NCBI RefSeq assembly: GCF_030534335.1
Contig: NZ_CP130565.1
Span: 69,501-133,500, forward strand
Length of the DNA stretch: 64,000 nucleotides
Source of the DNA: Marivirga harenae
GTDB lineage: Bacteria > Bacteroidota > Bacteroidia > Cytophagales > Cyclobacteriaceae
Direction of reading: 5' to 3'
The position numbers and the translations under genes were made by a program. Below the pieces are notes generated by a model, which saw nothing but the letters and a program-made list of their open reading frames with translations, was not told the origin of the DNA and did no database searches. Each line of letters opens with the position of its first letter. The stretch's first letter is position 1. This document shows positions 44,322-52,992 of this stretch, piece by piece.

Positions 44322-45335
44322 TCAATTCAGCTCTCCTCTTAGATCATACGCCTTTCGCATCTTATTTACCATCGCACTGCTTTCCTCAAAATATAGAGAT
44401 TGTTGACCATCACTCATTGCTTTTTCCGGATCAGGATGTAATTCATATATTACGCCATCAGCCCCAGCCATGATTCCTGCTAAAGCTACCGGTTCAACAT
44501 ATTTTCTGATGCCTATTCCATGTGATGGATCAACCACTACTGGCAAATGCGATCGGTCCTTTAAGACAGGGATAGCATTGATATCTAAAGTATTTCTAGT
44601 CATATTTTCGAAAGTTCTTATACCTCTTTCACATAAAATTAAGTCTTCATTCCCTCCACTGAACACATACTCTGCTGAATACAACAGCTCCTCAATAGTA
44701 CCACTCACTCCCCGTTTTATCATTACAGGTTTGTCAACTTTTCCCAAAGCATCAAGTAAATTGTAGTTTTGTGTATTTCTTGCTCCTACTTGGAATATGT
44801 CAATAAAATCATACATCTCTTCCACCTGAGAAACTTGCATCACTTCTGTAATGATCTTGATGCCAGCCGCTTTGGCTTTTTCATGCCACATACGCAAGCC
44901 TTCCATCCCCAGGCCACGGAAAGAGTAAGGGGAACTTCTAGGCTTGTACACTCCTCCACGCATGATTTTAACATTATTTTCTACCAAATGAGCGATAACA
45001 GCATCTACTTGCTCTTCATTCTCAATACTGCATGGACCCGCCATAATATTGAAATGATGTTGGGAGATAATATCTCCATCTCTAAGCTTGATTTCAGCAG
45101 GATTGACCTTCCATTTTTTAGAAACCAGCTGATAACTATCGGAAACCACATGCACATCCTTGACACCTTCAATATGTCCGATTTCACGGATGTCAATATC
45201 ACCTTTTTCTAATGCAACCAGGTAAAATCCTTTTTGAGTTTGTACCTCACTCACCGATTTTGTGAATTTTCCCAAAGAAGCAATTAAGTCCTCTTTTTGA
45301 GTGTTGTTTATGTTTTTTTCTAATTGTAAAATCAT
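44322..45335 (-). CDS. aroF: DAHP synthase (3-deoxy-7-phosphoheptulonate synthase), type I-beta
   Basis: First enzyme of the shikimate pathway (phosphoenolpyruvate plus erythrose 4-phosphate). The 337-residue protein has a ferredoxin/ACT-like regulatory domain (about 1-75) and a catalytic barrel with FNIMAGPCSIENEEQ, GVYKPRSSPYSFRGLG, and VVVDPSHGIG. It is the last gene of the tryptophan unit, supplying precursor; the 333-base spacer before it holds GC-rich palindromes. Confidence 0.95.
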   Translation of the reverse strand: MILQLEKNINNTQKEDLIASLGKFTKSVSEVQTQKGFYLVALEKGDIDIREIGHIEGVKDVHVVSDSYQLVSKKWKVNPAEIKLRDGDIISQHHFNIMAGPCSIENEEQVDAVIAHLVENNVKIMRGGVYKPRSSPYSFRGLGMEGLRMWHEKAKAAGIKIITEVMQVSQVEEMYDFIDIFQVGARNTQNYNLLDALGKVDKPVMIKRGVSGTIEELLYSAEYVFSGGNEDLILCERGIRTFENMTRNTLDINAIPVLKDRSHLPVVVDPSHGIGIRKYVEPVALAGIMAGADGVIYELHPDPEKAMSDGQQSLYFEESSAMVNKMRKAYDLRGELN

Positions 45336-45668
45336 ATTTTTAGATATTTAGAACCTAGAGTCTAGATTCTGGAATCAAGACTTTTTGATCAACTCTATGT
45401 TTATTTTTTATATATTTCAAATAAGCTATTCTTAACTAACACGATTCAGTTTCTCCTAGCTGAATTATTCTAAGCACTGAACACCCCTATAATCCCCTCT
45501 AGGGGATAGCCTCCCGGAATCCCTCTACTGGTAAATGATAAATTGCATCTCTATTTTCTTTCCAACTAATTCAACTTTTTATGTCAGCATGACATGTTTT
45601 ATCAAAATTGAAAGCAGTAAAAATCCGTGCGTCTCCCCCCTTGAGGGGGGGCGAGGGGGGTGTTGCAA
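45336..45668. other. Spacer between trpA and aroF with repeats
   Basis: No gene. A TCTAGA-type repeat lies near 45345-45385 and two GC-rich palindromes at 45492-45507 and 45635-45650. Confidence 0.65.
45484..45662. repeat. GC-rich REP-like palindromes in the trpA-aroF spacer
   Basis: ATCCCC-TCTA-GGGGAT (45492-45507) and CCCCCC-TTGA-GGGGGG (45635-45650), each followed by further C- or G-runs. They stand out in an AT-rich region and could affect read-through to aroF. Confidence 0.6.
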
Positions 45669-46448
45669 TCACCGTCTCTCTCTCATCTTAATAATGAAAC
45701 TTTCAACACTAGCCTCCAAATCATCTTCATCCAAAGCCTTGATAAACGCACTGCCGATAATTCCTCCATCAGCATATTTATTTACCATACTTAAGGCTTT
45801 ATTATCACTGATCCCAAAACCTACCATTCTTGGAGTTTTTAAATCCATTGCTTGAATTCGCGTCAAATAATCAAGTCTTTCCGGACTATCTCCCCAGCTG
45901 CCTCCTGTTGTACTGGAGCTGCTCACCATATAAATAAAGCCACCTTCTTGGGCATCTACTTCCCGTATTCTTTCTTCAGCAGTTTTTGGAGTAACCAAAA
46001 ACACATTCTTTAAATTATACTTTTCAAATATAGGCTTAAACTGCAATTTGAATTCATGCATTGGCATATCGGGCAAAATCAAACCGTCCACTCCTACCTC
46101 AGCACACTTCCGGCAAAACTTTTCAGTGCCGAATTTCAATACATTATTACAATAGCCCATCAGGAAAACTGGTTTGTCTGTAATTTTACGCATTTCAGCC
46201 AATTGCTCGAAAAGTTTATTCAAATTCATCCCGTTTGACAAGGCTTTCATACTGCTCTGCTGAATTACAGGTCCATCAGCCAAGGGATCTGAGTACGGCA
46301 TTCCTATCTCAATAATATCCACATCGGCTTTATCCAAGGCTTTTAAAATAGTAGAGGTGTCTTCCAAATTTGGATATCCTGCCGTAAAATAAATCGTCAG
46401 CTTTTCTTTGTCTTTTTGCTGAAATATATGTTCAATTCTGTTTTTCAT
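45669..46448 (-). CDS. trpA: Tryptophan synthase alpha chain
   Basis: Cleaves indole-3-glycerol phosphate to indole. The 259-residue barrel has GYPNLEDT (about 25), EIGMPYSDPLADGPVIQ with the catalytic Glu (about 48) and Asp, and VSSSSTTGGSW near residue 175. Follows trpB by 78 bases that contain a repeat. Confidence 0.96.
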   Translation of the reverse strand: MKNRIEHIFQQKDKEKLTIYFTAGYPNLEDTSTILKALDKADVDIIEIGMPYSDPLADGPVIQQSSMKALSNGMNLNKLFEQLAEMRKITDKPVFLMGYCNNVLKFGTEKFCRKCAEVGVDGLILPDMPMHEFKLQFKPIFEKYNLKNVFLVTPKTAEERIREVDAQEGGFIYMVSSSSTTGGSWGDSPERLDYLTRIQAMDLKTPRMVGFGISDNKALSMVNKYADGGIIGSAFIKALDEDDLEASVESFIIKMRERR

Positions 46449-46526
46449 GTTTCAAGAACCTAGAGTCTAGAACCAAGAACCAAGACTATAATTCTCAATT
46501 CTCAATTATTAATTGCTAATTAGTTT

Positions 46527-47708
46527 TCAGTAGTTTCCGAAATTAATGTAAGTCTGCAAGTCTTTATCACCGCGACCTGATAGATTAATCACCAAAATAT
46601 CATCTTTCTTAAATTCAAATTGATCTAAAGCTGCTAAAGCATGTGCAGTTTCCACCGCTGGAATTATTCCTTCCAATTTACTTAATTCTACTCCCGCATC
46701 CATGGCTTCCTTATCAGTTACATATTTAAAAATTCCTCTTTTGCTAGCATATAAATGAGCATGCAATGGCCCAATACCTGGGTAATCTAAACCTGCTGAA
46801 ATAGAGTAGGGTTCTGTTACTTGTCCATCTTCAGACTGCATCAATAAAGTTTTAAAACCATGCAAAACCCCTGAACTTCCTCTGGCAGTAGTCGCTGCAG
46901 TTTCTCCACTATCTAAACCATGTCCAGCAGCTTCAACGGCTACTAGTTTAACTTTTTCATTATTCAAGTAGTGATAAAATGCTCCAGCAGCATTGCTACC
47001 TCCACCTACGCAAGCTACTACGTAATCTGGTGCATTGGTTCCTTCTTGCTCTTGCAGTTGGGCCATCATTTCCTCACTAATAACAGACTGGAAACGAGTC
47101 ACCATATCGGGAAAAGGATGAGGACCAACAACCGACCCTATAATGTAATGTGTATCATCAGGATTATTGATCCAGTATCGCATGGCTTCGTTAGTAGCAT
47201 CTTTCAATGTTTTTGATCCTGAAGTAGCCGGAATCACCTCAGCACCTAATATTCTCATTCGCTCTACATTAGGCTTCTGTCTTACCATATCTTTTTCTCC
47301 CATAAAAACCTTGCATGGTAAATCCAATAAGGCGCAAGCTGTAGCGGTAGCCACTCCGTGCTGACCTGCGCCTGTTTCCGCAATAATCTTCTTTTTACCC
47401 AGCCTTTTGGCCAACAATGCCTGACCAATGGCATTATTGATCTTGTGTGCGCCTGTGTGGTTCAAATCTTCTCTTTTCAAATAGATCTTCGCTCCGTGCT
47501 TTTCTGAAAGTCTCTTTGCTAAATATAGTGGTGTTGGTCTTCCTACATAGTCTTTTAGCAAAGCCTTAAATTCTTCTTGAAATTCTGGATCAGCTGAAAT
47601 TTTCAAGTAATTATTTTTTAATTCTTCGATATTCGGGTGTAGAAGCTCAGGAATATAAGCACCACCGAACTCTCCGTAATATCCGTTTTCATCTATTTTA
47701 ATTTCCAT
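46527..47708 (-). CDS. trpB: Tryptophan synthase beta chain
   Basis: Joins indole and serine with PLP. The 393-residue sequence carries the PLP lysine in [14 protein letters not shown] (about 92) and [16 protein letters not shown], and [14 protein letters not shown]. Length normal. Starts 12 bases after trpF. Confidence 0.97.
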
Positions 47709-47720
47709 AATCCTTAATTC

Positions 47721-48347
47721 CTAATTATTAATTACTAATTGAACTTTGTCCAAATCCTTTAATCCCGGTTCTAGCTCTAATTTACTGTTGAAATCCAATG
47801 CGTAGAGCTTTTTAGATTTAAAATCGTTAATCCTGTGCTTATCTTCTATTGCCAAGCCACCGCTTAGGAAAAAAGGCTTCTTTATCTTACTATTTTCTAA
47901 TAGCTCCCAATTAAATTGAACTCCATTTCCACCTGGTAACTTTCCCTTAGTATCGAATAAGTAGTAGTCAGCATCAGAGTATTTATTTAAAACCTTAAAA
48001 TCAAAATCATCATCAACTGAAAATACCTTGATAACCTCCAAGCCTTCCTCTTTCAATGCCTTTACAACTTTCGGTTCTTCATTTCCATGCAATTGCACAA
48101 TGTCAAAAAAACCTTTATCTGCATAATCTAAAATCTTTTCAGCGCTTGCATTCACAAAAACACCTACCCTTTCCGTTTCGCCAAAGTTCAATTTGATAAT
48201 TTCCTTCATTTCATTTTCCGAAACGTAACGCGCAGATTTCTCATAAAAGATAAAACCTAAATAATCAGGTCCAAACTCTATAAGTTGCCGAATATTATTT
48301 AGATCCCGCATTCCGCAAATCTTTATTTTCAAGTCTTGTTCTTTCAT
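47721..48347 (-). CDS. trpF: Phosphoribosylanthranilate isomerase
   Basis: A 208-residue barrel: KIKICGMRDLNNI with catalytic Cys (about 11), VQLHGNE (about 83), DTKGKLPGGNGVQFNW with the catalytic Asp, and FLSGGL. Separate gene here, not fused to trpC. Amadori rearrangement in tryptophan synthesis. Confidence 0.95.
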   Translation of the reverse strand: MKEQDLKIKICGMRDLNNIRQLIEFGPDYLGFIFYEKSARYVSENEMKEIIKLNFGETERVGVFVNASAEKILDYADKGFFDIVQLHGNEEPKVVKALKEEGLEVIKVFSVDDDFDFKVLNKYSDADYYLFDTKGKLPGGNGVQFNWELLENSKIKKPFFLSGGLAIEDKHRINDFKSKKLYALDFNSKLELEPGLKDLDKVQLVINN

Positions 48348-48382
48348 ATTTTTACAAAGGTTTTGATTTCAATTTGAGCTGT

Positions 48383-49195
48383 CTATTTACCAATTTTGTC
48401 TGCCATCATATTTTTCACTTGCTGAGAAAAACGCTGGCAAGCTTTACCCGGTTCACTACTTTTCATAAAAGAGGTACCTATCAAAAAGCCATCAAATCCG
48501 GCTTTTTTCATTTTCACCACATCTTCAGGAGTCTTTAATCCGCTTTCAGCTATTTTCGGAACATCACTAGCTAGTTGATTTACAAGTGCCTCAGCTATTG
48601 TCAAATCGGTATTGAAGCTTTTCAAATCACGACTATTTATTCCTACCAAATCAGCATAGTTTCCATAGTGTGAATCCAACTCTTCTTGATTGTGAACTTC
48701 TAATAGCACTTCCATTCCCAGCTCGTGAGCCAAAGAAGCTAGGTCCTGACATAGTGATTTATCAATCATGGAGGCAATAAGCAATATGGCATCTGCTCCA
48801 TGCGCCTTTGCTTCATAGACTTGATAAGGGTCTAGCATGAAATCTTTGCGAAGAATAGGGCAATAATTGTACTTTCTAGCCACTTCCAAATCTTTTAAAC
48901 TCCCGCCAAAGGAAGGTTCATCTGTTAGTACAGACAAAGCACTCGCTCCACTTTGCATATAGCCAATAGAAACCTCCTCCACTGATATGTGGGCATTGAT
49001 TTTCCCTTCAGAAGGAGATTTTCTTTTAATCTCTGCAATGATTCCTGTTTTAGTTTCATCCATTACATAGGATTTAAGGCTTACAGGTTTCGATTTGTAA
49101 TAGAGCTTTTGCTTCAAGAATTCCACAGGAAATAGTTTTTGCCGCTCTATTACTTCTGCCTTTTTATATTCTGCTATTTGTTGTAGTATATTCAT
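48383..49195 (-). CDS. trpC: Indole-3-glycerol phosphate synthase
   Basis: A 270-residue barrel. IAEIKRKSPSEG (about 52-63, with catalytic Lys), LRKDFMLDPYQVYEA and LVGINSRDLKSF are diagnostic. Ring closure step before tryptophan synthase. Adjacent trpD and trpF on the same strand. Confidence 0.96.
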   Translation of the reverse strand: MNILQQIAEYKKAEVIERQKLFPVEFLKQKLYYKSKPVSLKSYVMDETKTGIIAEIKRKSPSEGKINAHISVEEVSIGYMQSGASALSVLTDEPSFGGSLKDLEVARKYNYCPILRKDFMLDPYQVYEAKAHGADAILLIASMIDKSLCQDLASLAHELGMEVLLEVHNQEELDSHYGNYADLVGINSRDLKSFNTDLTIAEALVNQLASDVPKIAESGLKTPEDVVKMKKAGFDGFLIGTSFMKSSEPGKACQRFSQQVKNMMADKIGK

Positions 49196-49235
49196 TTTCG
49201 TTAGATTTTAGATTCTAGAGCCTAGAACCTAGATT

Positions 49236-50225
49236 TTATATATTAATCAATTTTTTAAATACTTCATTCGCTTTTCCTGATTCAATGGCATCTTTGGCTG
49301 CTTCGGTTGCTTCGATTAAAGTGCTATATTTTCCAGCTGCTTGGAGAGCTAAAGCACTATTAGCAAATACTACTGAATTTTGAGCTTTTGTTCCTTCACC
49401 TTTTAAAATATCAGTAAAAATCTTAGCGGCTTCTTCTATGGTTTCGCCCCCGTGAATTTCATTTGCATTTATTTTTTCCAAGCCGAAATCAGCGGGTTTC
49501 AAGATTTGCTCTCCACTGGAAGAAAACACCTTCGTTTCTCCTGTCAAGGAACATTCATCATAGCCTTCCAAGTCATAAACCACGCTATATTGAGCATCTG
49601 ATTCCTGAAATAAGTAAGAATAGATCCTTGCCAATTCATGACTAAAAACACCAGCCATTTGTTTTTTAGGTAAAGCAGGATTTACTAATGGCCCTAGCAT
49701 ATTGAAGAAAGTTTTTACTCCCAATTCTTTCCTAATTGGACCTACAAAGCGCATAGCAGGATGAAATTTTGGTGCATGCAAAAAGCAAATTCCACTTTCT
49801 TCTAATTGCCTTTCCAATCCATCTTGTTCATTTGTAAATTCATATCCAAAGTACTCTAACAAATTAGAACTTCCACATTTGGAGGAAACTCCGTAATTAC
49901 CATGCTTTACCACATTCTGACCACAAGCCGCAACTACAAAAGCAGACATGGTGCTGATATTAAAAGTGTTTTTACCATCACCTCCAGTTCCGCACAAATC
50001 CATTCCGTCATAAGCGGAAAGATCGATCGGAACCCGCAACTCCATAAGCCCATCACGGAAACCGCTCAGCTCCTCTACTGTCACTGGACGAATCATGAAC
50101 AGCGTCATAAAGGCCGCTAGTTCCGAATTATTAAATTCACCTTGTCCAATTCGTAAGAAGATTGCCTTTGCCTCTTCTGTAGTCAAAGTATTGTATTGTG
50201 ATAATCTATTAATAAGTTCTTTCAT
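49236..50225 (-). CDS. trpD: Anthranilate phosphoribosyltransferase
   Basis: A 329-residue enzyme with DLCGTGGDGKNTFNIST (about 77-93), the PRPP-binding loop, and KHGNYGVSSKCGSSNLLE (about 112-129). Separate from trpG. A 161-base gap, containing a TCTAGA-type repeat, precedes it. Confidence 0.96.
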   Translation of the reverse strand: MKELINRLSQYNTLTTEEAKAIFLRIGQGEFNNSELAAFMTLFMIRPVTVEELSGFRDGLMELRVPIDLSAYDGMDLCGTGGDGKNTFNISTMSAFVVAACGQNVVKHGNYGVSSKCGSSNLLEYFGYEFTNEQDGLERQLEESGICFLHAPKFHPAMRFVGPIRKELGVKTFFNMLGPLVNPALPKKQMAGVFSHELARIYSYLFQESDAQYSVVYDLEGYDECSLTGETKVFSSSGEQILKPADFGLEKINANEIHGGETIEEAAKIFTDILKGEGTKAQNSVVFANSALALQAAGKYSTLIEATEAAKDAIESGKANEVFKKLINI

Positions 50226-50386
50226 TAATTTTAAATTTTTAGATTCTAGAACCTAGATTCTAGACTTTTCTCTGATTCACTGATTGTCTGTATTTCTATT
50301 TGCTTCAACTGCATTGCTATTCTCCCATCATCCTTGGCCAAATATCTACATTCTGAGTTCAATCTTACTACTCCTAACTCCCCACT

Positions 50387-50956
50387 TCAATCTCTGGCTA
50401 TCCAATTTTTCAGAATTTTGCTACCCTCAGGTGTCATCACTGACTCAGGATGAAACTGCAACCCGCAAACATCATATTTTTTATGCTGCACTGCCATGAT
50501 TTGACCATCTTCTGAACGAGCCACTACTTCTAAATCCGCGGGGAAATCTACTTCATTGATTGACCATGAATGATATCTTCCAATACTGATTTCTTCGGTA
50601 ATACCTGCAAAGAGGTAATGATTATCCAGTTTAGCTCGGCTTTGAATCCCGTGCATTACGGGTTGAATATTAAATAATTTCCCTCCAAAAGCCTGACCAA
50701 TGGCTTGATGCCCTAAACAGATTCCCAAAATCGATTTTTCGGCTGCATATCTTTTGATCAAATCCAACATAATACCCGCATTTTCAGGTACACTCGGTCC
50801 TGGTGAAAGTAAAATCTTGTCATATTTTTCTACTTCCTCTAGCGTGATTTTATCATTTCTAATGACATCGATTTCAACATTAATGTTTTGTTGTCTGATT
50901 ACCTCCACCAAATTGTAAGTAAAGGAGTCATAATTATCTAGTAATAGTATCTTCAT
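50387..50956 (-). CDS. trpG: Anthranilate synthase component II (glutamine amidotransferase)
   Basis: A 189-residue class I amidotransferase: ILLLDNYDSFTYNL start, LLSPGPSVPE, nucleophile Cys in ILGICLGHQAIG (about 79), and LQFHPESVMT. Supplies ammonia to TrpE. Nine bases after trpE, so a coupled pair. Confidence 0.95.
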   Translation of the reverse strand: MKILLLDNYDSFTYNLVEVIRQQNINVEIDVIRNDKITLEEVEKYDKILLSPGPSVPENAGIMLDLIKRYAAEKSILGICLGHQAIGQAFGGKLFNIQPVMHGIQSRAKLDNHYLFAGITEEISIGRYHSWSINEVDFPADLEVVARSEDGQIMAVQHKKYDVCGLQFHPESVMTPEGSKILKNWIARD

Positions 50957-50965
50957 GTCCTAAAC

Positions 50966-52375
50966 TTATTTTTGATGTTGGTCGAATAGATTTTCTGCTT
51001 TCTCCATCGCCTTTCTCAAGGCATATAATTTATTGTGGACTTCCTGCAATTCACTCTGAGGATGTGACAAAGCCACAATTCCTGCTCCAGCTCGATAATT
51101 CAATTTATTATCTTTACTTACAAAGGAGCGAATTACAATGGCATGATTTAAATTACCATTCAACCCAATTAAACCCACAGCACCACCATACAGTCCTCGA
51201 CCTGTTGGCTCGTATTTATTGATCAGTTCTAATGCTTTATATTTTGGTGCCCCACTCAAAGTGCCTGCCGGAAATGTATCGGCCAGCAATTTCACAGCTG
51301 ATTTCTCAGGAACATCTGCCGTTACTTTACTTACTAAATGAATCACATGAGAATAAAACTGGATTTCTTTATAGACATCCACTTTAACATTACTTCCATG
51401 CTTTGACAAATCATTTCTTCCTAAGTCTACCAGCATGGTGTGCTCGGCATTTTCTTTTTCATCATTCAACAGCTGTTCCGCTAATTTTGCATCTGCGGCA
51501 TCATCTCCACTCCTTCTGTATGTTCCAGCTATTGGGTTCACATAAGCTTTGTTGCCTTTGACTCCAACTTGTGCTTCGGGTGATGACCCAAATAATTTAT
51601 AATCTCCATAATCAAAATAGAACAAATAAGGAGATGGATTTAAAGATCGTAATGCTCGATAAACAGTAAACTCATCTCCTTTAAATTCTTGGGAAAAAGC
51701 ACGGGAAAGCACCATTTGAAAAACATCCCCTAATTGAGCGTGAGCTATTCCTTTATTAATGATTTCCAGAAACTCCAGGTCGCTCATATTGCTGCTTTCC
51801 TCTCCTACTTTTTGGAATTTGAATTGCGGAACTGAACGATTTAAAATGACTTGGACCAAATCATCTTGTGTGAACTCATACTTAGTATTGATTTCATGTT
51901 CAAAAACATGAAGCTCATCTTTAAAATGATCAAAAACCAGTACAAATCGATAAAAGTGATAGCGAAGAAACGGGATATCCTCTTGTACTTTCTCAAAATT
52001 GATATCTTCGAAGTATTGAACACCATCGAAGCCAGTTGCACCAAAAAATCCACTTTCCTCAAACTCTTCTCCTTTCAAAATATCCTCAGCTTCAAATTGA
52101 TTAATGAAATCTTGAAGTTTAGCTGGAAGCGATAGTTTATCTACCAATTCCTCAGTTCTTTCCACCCCCTCAATTTCAGTATAAAATGAATTATTCGTGG
52201 CTTTAACTTCTGCTATGGACTGCACTCCAATATATGAAAAGCTATTCCTTCGCGTGTGATAATCCGAACTTTCCATCAAAAAAGTATGGGGGAATTGATC
52301 TCGCAGCCGAAGATATAATGCAACGGGGGTAAATGAGTCTGCCGGTAGTGTGATATGTGATTTCTTTACTTTCAT
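50966..52375 (-). CDS. trpE: Anthranilate synthase component I
   Basis: Forms anthranilate from chorismate. The 469 residues end in the chorismate-binding domain (about 200-460): FQMVLSRAF, LFGSSPEAQV, NPIAGTYRRSGDDA, VDLGRNDLSKHGSNV, FPAGTLSGAPK. First structural gene of the tryptophan unit. It is preceded by a leader of about 370 bases with two Trp-rich leader peptides and two terminators, so expression should depend on charged tRNA-Trp. Confidence 0.96.
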   Translation of the reverse strand: MKVKKSHITLPADSFTPVALYLRLRDQFPHTFLMESSDYHTRRNSFSYIGVQSIAEVKATNNSFYTEIEGVERTEELVDKLSLPAKLQDFINQFEAEDILKGEEFEESGFFGATGFDGVQYFEDINFEKVQEDIPFLRYHFYRFVLVFDHFKDELHVFEHEINTKYEFTQDDLVQVILNRSVPQFKFQKVGEESSNMSDLEFLEIINKGIAHAQLGDVFQMVLSRAFSQEFKGDEFTVYRALRSLNPSPYLFYFDYGDYKLFGSSPEAQVGVKGNKAYVNPIAGTYRRSGDDAADAKLAEQLLNDEKENAEHTMLVDLGRNDLSKHGSNVKVDVYKEIQFYSHVIHLVSKVTADVPEKSAVKLLADTFPAGTLSGAPKYKALELINKYEPTGRGLYGGAVGLIGLNGNLNHAIVIRSFVSKDNKLNYRAGAGIVALSHPQSELQEVHNKLYALRKAMEKAENLFDQHQK

Positions 52376-52396: not shown

Positions 52397-52477
52397 AAAC
52401 CTGTCAGGTTTCAATTAGTTTATTGGTAAAATTCTTCAATTGTCTAGTTAATTTATCGATCCAAACCTAACAGGTTT
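52397..52477 (-). repeat. Paired AAACCTG/CAGGTTT palindromes in the trpE leader
   Basis: AAACCTGTCAGGTTT (52397-52411) and AAACCTAACAGGTTT (52463-52477). Each can form a short hairpin, and the two can also pair with one another. They lie between the second terminator and trpE. Possible mRNA-stability elements. Confidence 0.55.
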
Positions 52478-52495
52478 AGTCAGATTTTAATAGAC

Positions 52496-52533
52496 AAAAA
52501 AAAGGCTTACCGAATGTCCGGTAAGCCTTTTTT
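52496..52533 (-). terminator. Attenuator 2 terminator of the trp leader
   Basis: On the minus strand GGCTTACCG (52527-52519), loop GACATT, CGGTAAGCC (52512-52504), then eight T; A6 before the stem extends it. It follows the second leader peptide. An alternative pairing of ACTGGATG (52570-52563) with CATTCGGT (52516-52509), eight pairs with two G-U, would break it. Confidence 0.92.
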
Positions 52534-52561
52534 GTTTGCATTTTGAGCATGGCATATCCTT

Positions 52562-52621
52562 TCATCCAGTATTAGATGCTATTCCGTGCCACCACCATGC
52601 GTTATTCAATTTATTAATCAT
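52562..52621 (-). CDS. trpL: Trp leader peptide 2
   Basis: A 19-codon ORF, MINKLNNAWWWHGIASNTG, with three successive TGG codons (52597-52589). Trp is rare and TGG has no synonyms, so chance is unlikely. The stop TGA overlaps ACTGGATG, the strand proposed to pair with the terminator loop and 3' arm. A ribosome that reaches the stop would hide that strand and let the terminator form; one stalled at TGG would leave it free. It lies 24 bases after the first terminator's T-run edge and needs read-through of that terminator. Too short for routine gene calling. Confidence 0.88.
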   Translation of the reverse strand: MINKLNNAWWWHGIASNTG

Positions 52622-52640
52622 TTTCGAAAATATTAAGTCA

Positions 52641-52666
52641 AAAAAAAACCTCGCTAGACAGCGAGG
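52641..52666 (-). terminator. Attenuator 1 terminator of the trp leader
   Basis: On the minus strand CCTCGCT (52666-52660), loop GTCT, AGCGAGG (52655-52649), then a run of T. Antiterminator pairing is perfect over seven bases: AGACAGC (52696-52690), just after the leader 1 stop codon, with GCTGTCT (52662-52656), which covers part of the 5' arm and the loop. Confidence 0.92.
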
Positions 52667-52697
52667 TTTTAAATATTTTATATACCAGTGCTGTCTT

Positions 52698-52748
52698 CTA
52701 AAATTTAGAAGTCCACCACCAGTTAATATTTGTTTTTCTATTTTGCAT
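52698..52748 (-). CDS. trpL: Trp leader peptide 1
   Basis: A 16-codon ORF, MQNRKTNINWWWTSKF, with three successive TGG codons (52721-52713) and stop TAG at 52700-52698. AGACAGC, the antiterminator strand, begins two bases after the stop, where a terminating ribosome would cover it. A short self-complementary stretch CTTCTA...TAGAAG spans the stop and may be a pause hairpin. ATG stands 5 bases downstream of the -7 promoter box, so the transcript may be leaderless or nearly so. Confidence 0.87.
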   Translation of the reverse strand: MQNRKTNINWWWTSKF

Positions 52749-52753
52749 TTGCA

Positions 52754-52784
52754 CAAATGTAAACGCCAAATTCAAATTACCAAA
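52754..52784 (-). promoter_or_regulatory. trp operon promoter, perfect Bacteroidota type
   Basis: On the minus strand TTTG (52784-52781), 19-base spacer, TACATTTG (52761-52754): an exact match to TTTG-N19-21-TAnnTTTG. The -33 box begins just after the bTHX stop codon, and the start point should fall at or near the ATG of leader peptide 1. Confidence 0.82.
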
Positions 52785-52785
52785 G

Positions 52786-52992
52786 TTATTTTTCAGTTTT
52801 TTTCTTGGTAGTTGTTTTTTTAGCTGCAGTAGTCTTTTTGGATGTGCTGTCCTTTTTAGCTGTACTTGCTTTCTTTTCTTTTGACTCTGCCTTAGGAATC
52901 ACAGCGCTACTTGTAGTTTTCTTTGGTCTTCTTACTCCAAAAGAACCAGCAAAGATTTTGCCTTTTTTCGTTTTTTTATCTCCTTTTCCCAT
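52786..52992 (-). CDS. Small ribosomal subunit protein bTHX with lysine-rich tail
   Basis: A 68-residue basic protein. MGKGDKKTKKGKIFAGSFGV then RRPKK is the bTHX signature (compare GKGDKKTRRGKIFRGSYGVRRP in Thermus-type proteins). After it comes a low-complexity Lys/Thr/Ala/Ser tail (about 30-68) reminiscent of histone H1-like tails, absent from the short Thermus protein. bTHX binds near the head of the 30S subunit. Its gene is divergent from the CaCA antiporter and immediately upstream of the trp promoter. Confidence 0.9.
   Translation of the reverse strand: MGKGDKKTKKGKIFAGSFGVRRPKKTTSSAVIPKAESKEKKASTAKKDSTSKKTTAAKKTTTKKKTEK

Follow-up and report, generated by a model that had tools for sequence, protein, structure and literature searches.

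Two predicted tryptophan attenuators in series before the trp operon of Marivirga and their recurrence in Cytophagales

The window, a stretch of 64,000 nucleotides of DNA from a Marivirga genome of 4.37 Mb, holds on its minus strand an operon of the order trpE-trpG-trpD-trpC-trpF-trpB-trpA-DAHP synthase (44322-52375), recognised from open reading frames (ORFs), Pfam and NCBIfam; the NCBIfam check of this region took in five of nine proteins. TrpE identity to the closest named relatives runs from 93% (M. sericea) down to 76% (M. atlantica). The upstream neighbour, on the same strand, is the gene thx of the 30S ribosomal protein THX (52786-52992; TIGR04560, 51.4 bits; Pfam Thx). A tandem leader lies between thx and trpE; its first ORF starts 373 nt upstream of trpE, after a gap of 37 nt from the end of thx.

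An earlier note on this DNA had claimed two minus-strand leader ORFs, each with a WWW run, before the trp operon, and both were recovered to the base, at 52748-52698 and 52621-52562. ORF1, MQNRKTNINWWWTSKF, carries its TGG triplet at 52721-52713, and the WWW run is conserved in the genus. Antiterminator strand 2 of this unit, AGACAGC (52690-52696), begins at the second base past the stop codon and pairs with GCTGTCT (52662-52656) as a perfect 7-mer, just as had been proposed. The strand CACTGGT (52684-52690) pairs with the TGG codons as a 1:2 hairpin in the minimum free energy (MFE) structure, with 61 of 63 cells paired in the genus. The terminator T1, seen by terminator scan and by folding, occupies 52645-52670 and includes the GCTGTCT segment; its U tract extends to about 52637. 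ORF2, MINKLNNAWWWHGIASNTG, has its TGG triplet at 52597-52589. The candidate antiterminator strand of unit 2, ACTGGATG (52563-52570), overlaps the stop codon and can pair with CATTCGGT (52516-52509) in the terminator T2 (52498-52533). This second proposed pairing also held, comprising eight pairs, two of them G-U, with a longest perfect match of only 3 bases, and it appears in nascent-chain folding. In unit 2, the 1:2 hairpin is made by the strand CCATGC (52547-52552) and by GCATGG (52600-52595), which overlaps the TGG codons; across the genus, 53 of 54 cells are paired and two-sided changes are absent. T2 emerges from the scan and from pairing in the genus. Each ORF is indeed followed by its own intrinsic terminator, the limits given by the scan (52670-52645 and 52533-52498) being a few bases off those first suggested.

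T1 is also the first terminator downstream of thx, none being found before ORF1, and read-through from thx would therefore enter the trp leader. Between T2 and trpE there is a palindrome, AAACCTGACAGGTTT, with a variant, AAACCTGTTAGGTTT, upstream of it (52397-52411 and 52463-52477 in the window). The sequence AAACCTGWCAGGTTT has 27 sites in the genome, against none for the reversed control, and eight site pairs lie 66-71 nt apart, which gives it the appearance of a small dispersed repeat. In some Marivirga species, the palindrome is, by eye, absent from the interval between T2 and trpE.

In the enteric trp attenuator, the pairings are 1:2, 2:3 and 3:4 and the Trp codons lie in strand 1. The MFE structure of the present leader contains in both units a 1:2 hairpin, made of the TGG codons and the strand after the stop codon, together with a 3:4 terminator, and the enteric trp leader likewise shows this combination. 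Folding of the leader RNA, a check that the earlier note had proposed, gave a strong signal: -77.6 kcal/mol vs. -46.1 ± 4.4 kcal/mol in shuffles (z = -7.1), with none of 200 shuffles as good. An ORF with WWW did not arise in any of 5000 shuffles of the 430-nt upstream stretch of this genome. The same 430-nt control was applied to 161 of 164 genomes surveyed, three being too short. ORFs with WW were found within 430 nt upstream of trpE in 140 of the 161, vs. none on the opposite strand and a mean of 1.05 over 20 rounds of shuffling; two or more such ORFs were found in 19 genomes, vs. none on the opposite strand and none in the shuffles. Chance occurrence of the WWW triplets is ruled out by the 5000 shuffles and by these upstream controls.

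The survey covered the region upstream of trpE in 164 Cytophagales genomes and at 75 named Bacteroidota loci (80 minus 5 Marivirga duplicates). The 164 genomes consist of an evenly drawn family sample of 90 (out of 91 genomes with a trpE match, one being lost to a contig end), 7 further Marivirga and an order sample of 67, made up of the 27 best new matches and 40 picked from listed places. An ORF of 7-45 codons counted as a leader if it encoded at least WW. By this definition, a WW or WWW leader, mostly a single one, precedes trpE in 141 of the 164 genomes and at 70 of the 75 named loci. Counting units with a scored terminator, there are two in 17, one in 122 and none in 25 of the Cytophagales genomes, and two at none, one at 58 and none at 17 of the named loci.

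Two leaders were found in 19 of the 164 genomes, namely 9 Marivirga and 10 genomes from 8 other genera, and both terminators were scored in 17 of the 19. All nine Marivirga genomes with a trpE match have two units with terminators; the tenth, 86% complete, has no trpE match. WWW is kept in both ORFs of all nine leaders, which bears out the comparison of TGG codons in relatives that had been suggested. Outside Marivirga, both terminators were scored in 8 of the 10 tandem genomes, the scan leaving T1 unscored in the two-leader loci L132 and L223. Three of these ten belong to genus g172 of family f13, and one each to genera g12, g24, g37, g38, g75, g80 and g81 of family f1. In the evenly drawn family sample, the tandem occurs in 8 of 90 genomes, two of them Marivirga. 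Both states can meet within one genus, as in g37, where G363 is tandem and G045 and G372 are single. The idea that the tandem is an oddity of one genome is ruled out by the 19 two-leader genomes. Four apparent double leaders (L070, L103, L107 and L230) were dropped, the first leader lying far upstream (about -490 to -590) and having no matching unit. A strict DNA pattern (WWW, T6, WWW) matched 1 of 395 genomes of the phylum, the own one, and 6 of 390 of the order, four of them Marivirga and two (G125 and G176) judged to be chance from the matched letters only; the strict pattern misses WW variants and was therefore not used for frequency.

The distribution was also placed on a TrpE tree of 124 rows, made by a quick method that leaves 41 of 121 inner branches open. 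On this tree, tandem vs. all other rows needs at least nine changes, and the starred branches force only three changes against rows with no leader; the tandem rows G020, G032, G046 and G088 are long branches of unsure placement, and gain is indistinguishable from loss. In the ten tandems outside Marivirga, unit 1 has WW in seven and WWW in three, and unit 2 has WW in three and WWW in seven. The single trp units of L141 (G276), L108 (G027) and L114 (G103) lie unusually far from trpE, starting at about -290 to -275 and stopping at about -235 to -225. Unit 1 of tandem relatives has a similar location, a hint that a second unit was lost or has not yet been gained.

The matching of antiterminator and terminator was compared over 214 units. 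In many of them, pairing joins the 5' arm or loop of the terminator to the strand at or just past the stop codon; this strand often reads TGAACAGC by eye, and its partner is often GCTGTTCA. The longest perfect complement averages 5.38 bases vs. 4.17 ± 0.07 after re-dealing strands and terminators, and the mean duplex energy is -11.3 kcal/mol for matched vs. -8.1 ± 0.15 kcal/mol for permuted partners. At the tandem loci, 31 of 34 units form a stronger duplex with their own terminator than with that of the neighbouring unit, from which it appears that the units mostly carry their own matched switch; with Marivirga thinned to three genomes, this still holds in 19 of 22 units. The exceptions (L119, L189 and L209) all concern unit 1, with perfect matches of only 4 bases in L119 and L209. 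Within the genus, the pairing AGACAGC/GCTGTCT of unit 1 has become AGGCGG/CCGCCT in L097. T2 is paired in 135 of 135 cells in the genus. The stem covariation that the earlier note had asked about was seen there, where four pairs show two-sided changes; the antiterminator of unit 2 is paired in 65 of 72 cells and has no two-sided change. For unit 1, the column counts are modest, partly through gaps (terminator 73 of 90 and antiterminator 49 of 63 cells paired).

Full-length folding with a bound ribosome at four positions per unit did not show antitermination, the terminators winning always. Antitermination must therefore be kinetic, and nascent lengths were folded for this reason. With a ribosome modelled at the Trp codons, at least five pairs between strand 2 and the terminator appear at some length in all 34 tandem units; for at least four pairs, the count is again all 34 among the tandem units and 138 of 179 among the single ones; with the ribosome at the stop codon, at least four pairs appear in 7 of 34 tandem and 31 of 179 single units, a contrast that is partly built in, since the modelled ribosome covers strand 2. 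Real spacers give 12.4 pairs vs. 5.3 for shuffled ones; 33 of the 34 exceed the median of their shuffles, and 21 exceed every one of the 12. Shuffled spacers reach at least five pairs in 56% of cases and at least eight in 31%, so the nascent-fold count is weak alone and serves as support for the pairing tests. As in the class of ribosome-mediated attenuators, codons for the product of the operon lie in the leader ORF and a terminator follows; the other mark of the class, an exclusive antiterminator that is covered with the ribosome at the stop codon and free on a Trp stall, is predicted from the pairing comparisons with permuted and neighbouring partners and from the nascent folds, and is not seen in the full-length folds.

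TAnnTTTG is a promoter motif of Bacteroidota. In the window, a predicted promoter (52754-52784, minus strand) is formed by TTTG (52784-52781), a 19-nt spacer and TACATTTG (52761-52754), and it recurs in the comparison of tandem loci. As this promoter stops 5 nt short of ATG1, the mRNA of the first leader probably starts a few bases from the initiation codon, and ORF1 probably lies on a near-leaderless mRNA. At 17 of the 19 tandem loci, 4-7 nt separate the end of the exact motif from an in-frame ATG of ORF1 (an internal one in L159), and within 40 nt before ORF2 it is found at none of the 19, the present locus included; the chance pairs L070 and L230 are left out of these counts. A motif before ORF1 and none before ORF2 point to one transcript with a near-leaderless first ORF and two gates in series. 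The lack of a motif before ORF2 counts for less than it seems to, because most single leaders also go without the exact motif: no more than 38 of 121 in the order sample, and 4 of 68 at the named loci, have one at a distance of up to 12 nt. According to the available passages of one paper, a leaderless trp leader peptide has a precedent in Sinorhizobium meliloti (PMC7298713).

Could unit 2 alone control trp, unit 1 with T1 being a relic or mainly the terminator of thx? The gene does end 37 nt before ORF1 with no other terminator found between by the scan, and one unit suffices in most relatives. A THX-like start lies within 900 nt upstream of trpE at 29 of 164 sampled loci. These comprise 12 of the 19 tandem loci (the 9 of Marivirga and 3 of the 10 outside it) but 17 of the 145 remaining ones, which shows an association between thx and the tandem state. 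However, these 17 loci have a THX-like start and are not tandem, and 7 of the 10 tandem genomes outside Marivirga have no THX-like start within 900 nt, from which it follows that T1 is not simply the thx terminator. Moreover, the promoter motif stands directly before ORF1 and not before ORF2, and unit 1 of Marivirga keeps its WWW and its antiterminator fit. The relic or thx-terminator explanation is thus considered quite unlikely. That unit 2 is separately promoted, the two attenuators acting in parallel and not in series, appears very unlikely: an exact motif is present within 40 nt of none of the 19 second leaders vs. within 7 nt of 17 of 19 first ones, although a one-mismatch motif, TATTTTCG, is located 3 nt before ORF2 in the window, four of the 19 second leaders, counted without the chance pair L070, have such a motif within 12 nt, and 83 of 121 single leaders, too, lack the exact motif within 12 nt. 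The products of attenuation, short RNAs or leader peptides, might instead regulate other genes in trans. The passages available on peTrpL/rnTrpL of S. meliloti supply a precedent with a leaderless trpL (PMC7298713), and a near-leaderless mRNA is predicted here for the first ORF; the leader peptides, however, vary between genera outside the W run (by eye), and we regard a role in trans as unlikely.

The reading that we hold with good confidence, and which the earlier note had put forward, is that a single transcript carries, as its trp leader, two complete transcription attenuators of the ribosome-mediated kind, placed in series and each sensing charged tRNA-Trp. It gains support from the WWW runs kept in nine of nine Marivirga leaders, the fit to the own terminator in 31 of 34 units and the promoter motif found only before unit 1. 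The ORFs, the terminators, the matched antiterminators, their conservation and the confinement of the promoter motif to unit 1 come directly from sequence and comparison; the transcription start, the ribosome positions, the response to tryptophan and the multiplicative output of the tandem leader we infer.

In the proposed mechanism, RNA polymerase would start just upstream of ORF1. When tryptophan is plentiful, the ribosome would reach the stop codon and cover strand 2, and T1 would form. A stall at the TGG codons would block the 1:2 hairpin, and the freed strand 2 would pair with the 5' arm or loop of the terminator before the 3' arm is complete, allowing polymerase to pass T1. Beyond it, ORF2 would be transcribed, being reached only by polymerases past T1, and a second ribosome would repeat the test at T2. 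Since full-length mRNA needs two successive stalls, the output would approximate the product of two read-through probabilities, each set by the charging of tRNA-Trp. Such an output may keep the leak low, make induction steep and filter out one-off stalls, as a polymerase that gets through T1 on a single chance stall would meet T2 with a fresh ribosome. The two stages may also be tuned apart, in keeping with the split of WW and WWW between units. No match to Trp_repressor was found in the genome at E ≤ 0.001; with no recognisable TrpR and a product output, the cell could therefore gain range and lower its leak. We lean, with modest confidence, towards a wider reading in which the leader is a two-stage attenuator for one and the same signal, a coincidence detector of two successive Trp stalls, with a near-leaderless ORF1 and a promoterless ORF2, that replaces the unfound TrpR, that has been repeatedly gained or lost in Cytophagales and whose stages are often tuned differently.

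Lopatovskaya et al. reportedly made a comparative study of attenuation in 2010. Series of like sensors exist in the form of tandem trp T-boxes. Tandem riboswitches and trp T-boxes resemble the present leader in setting like sensors in series, with steeper control proposed, but there the RNA binds a ligand or tRNA directly and no leader ORF is translated. In the available passages of Weinberg et al. (PMC2864571), a "tandem" arrangement is linked to more digital control, and the word is used only for motifs other than Bacteroid-trp; Table 1 of that 2010 paper lists Bacteroid-trp for Bacteroidetes. This element is Rfam RF01692, "Bacteroidete tryptophan peptide leader RNA", and, like the present units, it has in Bacteroidota a Trp leader ORF containing a run of TGG codons ahead of trp genes. 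Both units align full-length to the model (positions 1-131), unit 1 including the post-stop ACAGCACU, and, with 150 of the 1469 first-look candidates scored, they rank first and second in the 4.37 Mb, at E values of 0.007 and 0.96. Their scores, 39.7 and 28.2 bits, are, in contrast to members of the family, below the 49-bit gathering cut-off. A single unit is thus best seen as a divergent relative of the known element. None of ten Marivirga genomes has a match over the cut-off. At E ≤ 10, both units are matched in seven of the nine Marivirga genomes with trpE and one unit in two (G003 and G006), a threshold at which half of 14 control genomes also match, one over the cut-off. None of 13 Cytophagales upstream loci, all with a WW leader, and none of 18 named Bacteroidota loci, 15 with a WW leader, passes the cut-off either. 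The model therefore appears narrow, and a rebuild of RF01692 is suggested.

The enteric trp attenuator (RF00513) follows the same pairing logic, and unit 1 scores 33.4 bits over its full model, but this is under the 41-bit cut-off; moreover, it has one unit, whereas there are two here, and no Trp_repressor match is found here. Another related case is the Salmonella mgtCBR leader, in which two short ORFs in one leader control the transcription of one operon. According to the accessible parts of its description, they sense different signals, ATP and proline, and act additively, and the leader is contrasted with one having two intrinsic terminators (PMC3641672). Here, by contrast, both ORFs carry Trp codons, with TGG triplets in each and so not two different signals, and each has its own intrinsic terminator. 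The earlier note had raised the question of newness to the phylum. For the single trp leader, this is ruled out by RF01692; for the tandem pair, no report of tandem same-amino-acid attenuators was found among the titles, abstract openings and passages of the literature covered, mgtCBR being the closest.

Genes of tRNA-Trp were encountered upstream of trpE at two loci. In L138 (G159), two tandem tRNA-Trp(CCA) genes (695-766 and 795-866), alike at 64 of 72 bases, lie co-directionally between a terminator and trpE (match from 901). This locus has no WW leader; before the terminator, inspection by eye shows a CAAACAG/CTGTTTG match and an ORF that has one Trp codon. If L138 is attenuated, the supply of tRNA-Trp would be controlled as well, making a feedback loop. 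In L230 (G128), a tRNA-Trp gene (767-840) lies between the terminator of the trp attenuator and trpE. Among 244 upstream stretches scanned (5 duplicates), only these two hold tRNA-Trp; L128 holds tRNA-Met and L238 tRNA-Pro.

In the usual description of attenuation, an amino acid operon has a single leader peptide and a single terminator. Judged from the genomes compared, the tandem is a real, recurrent and new arrangement of a known attenuator, for which control by tryptophan is predicted, and two attenuators would be expected to give a steeper response to tryptophan than one. The recurrence of a series for the same amino acid offers a natural test of whether chained attenuators sharpen the response or lower noise, and genera with both states, such as g37, allow a ready comparison.
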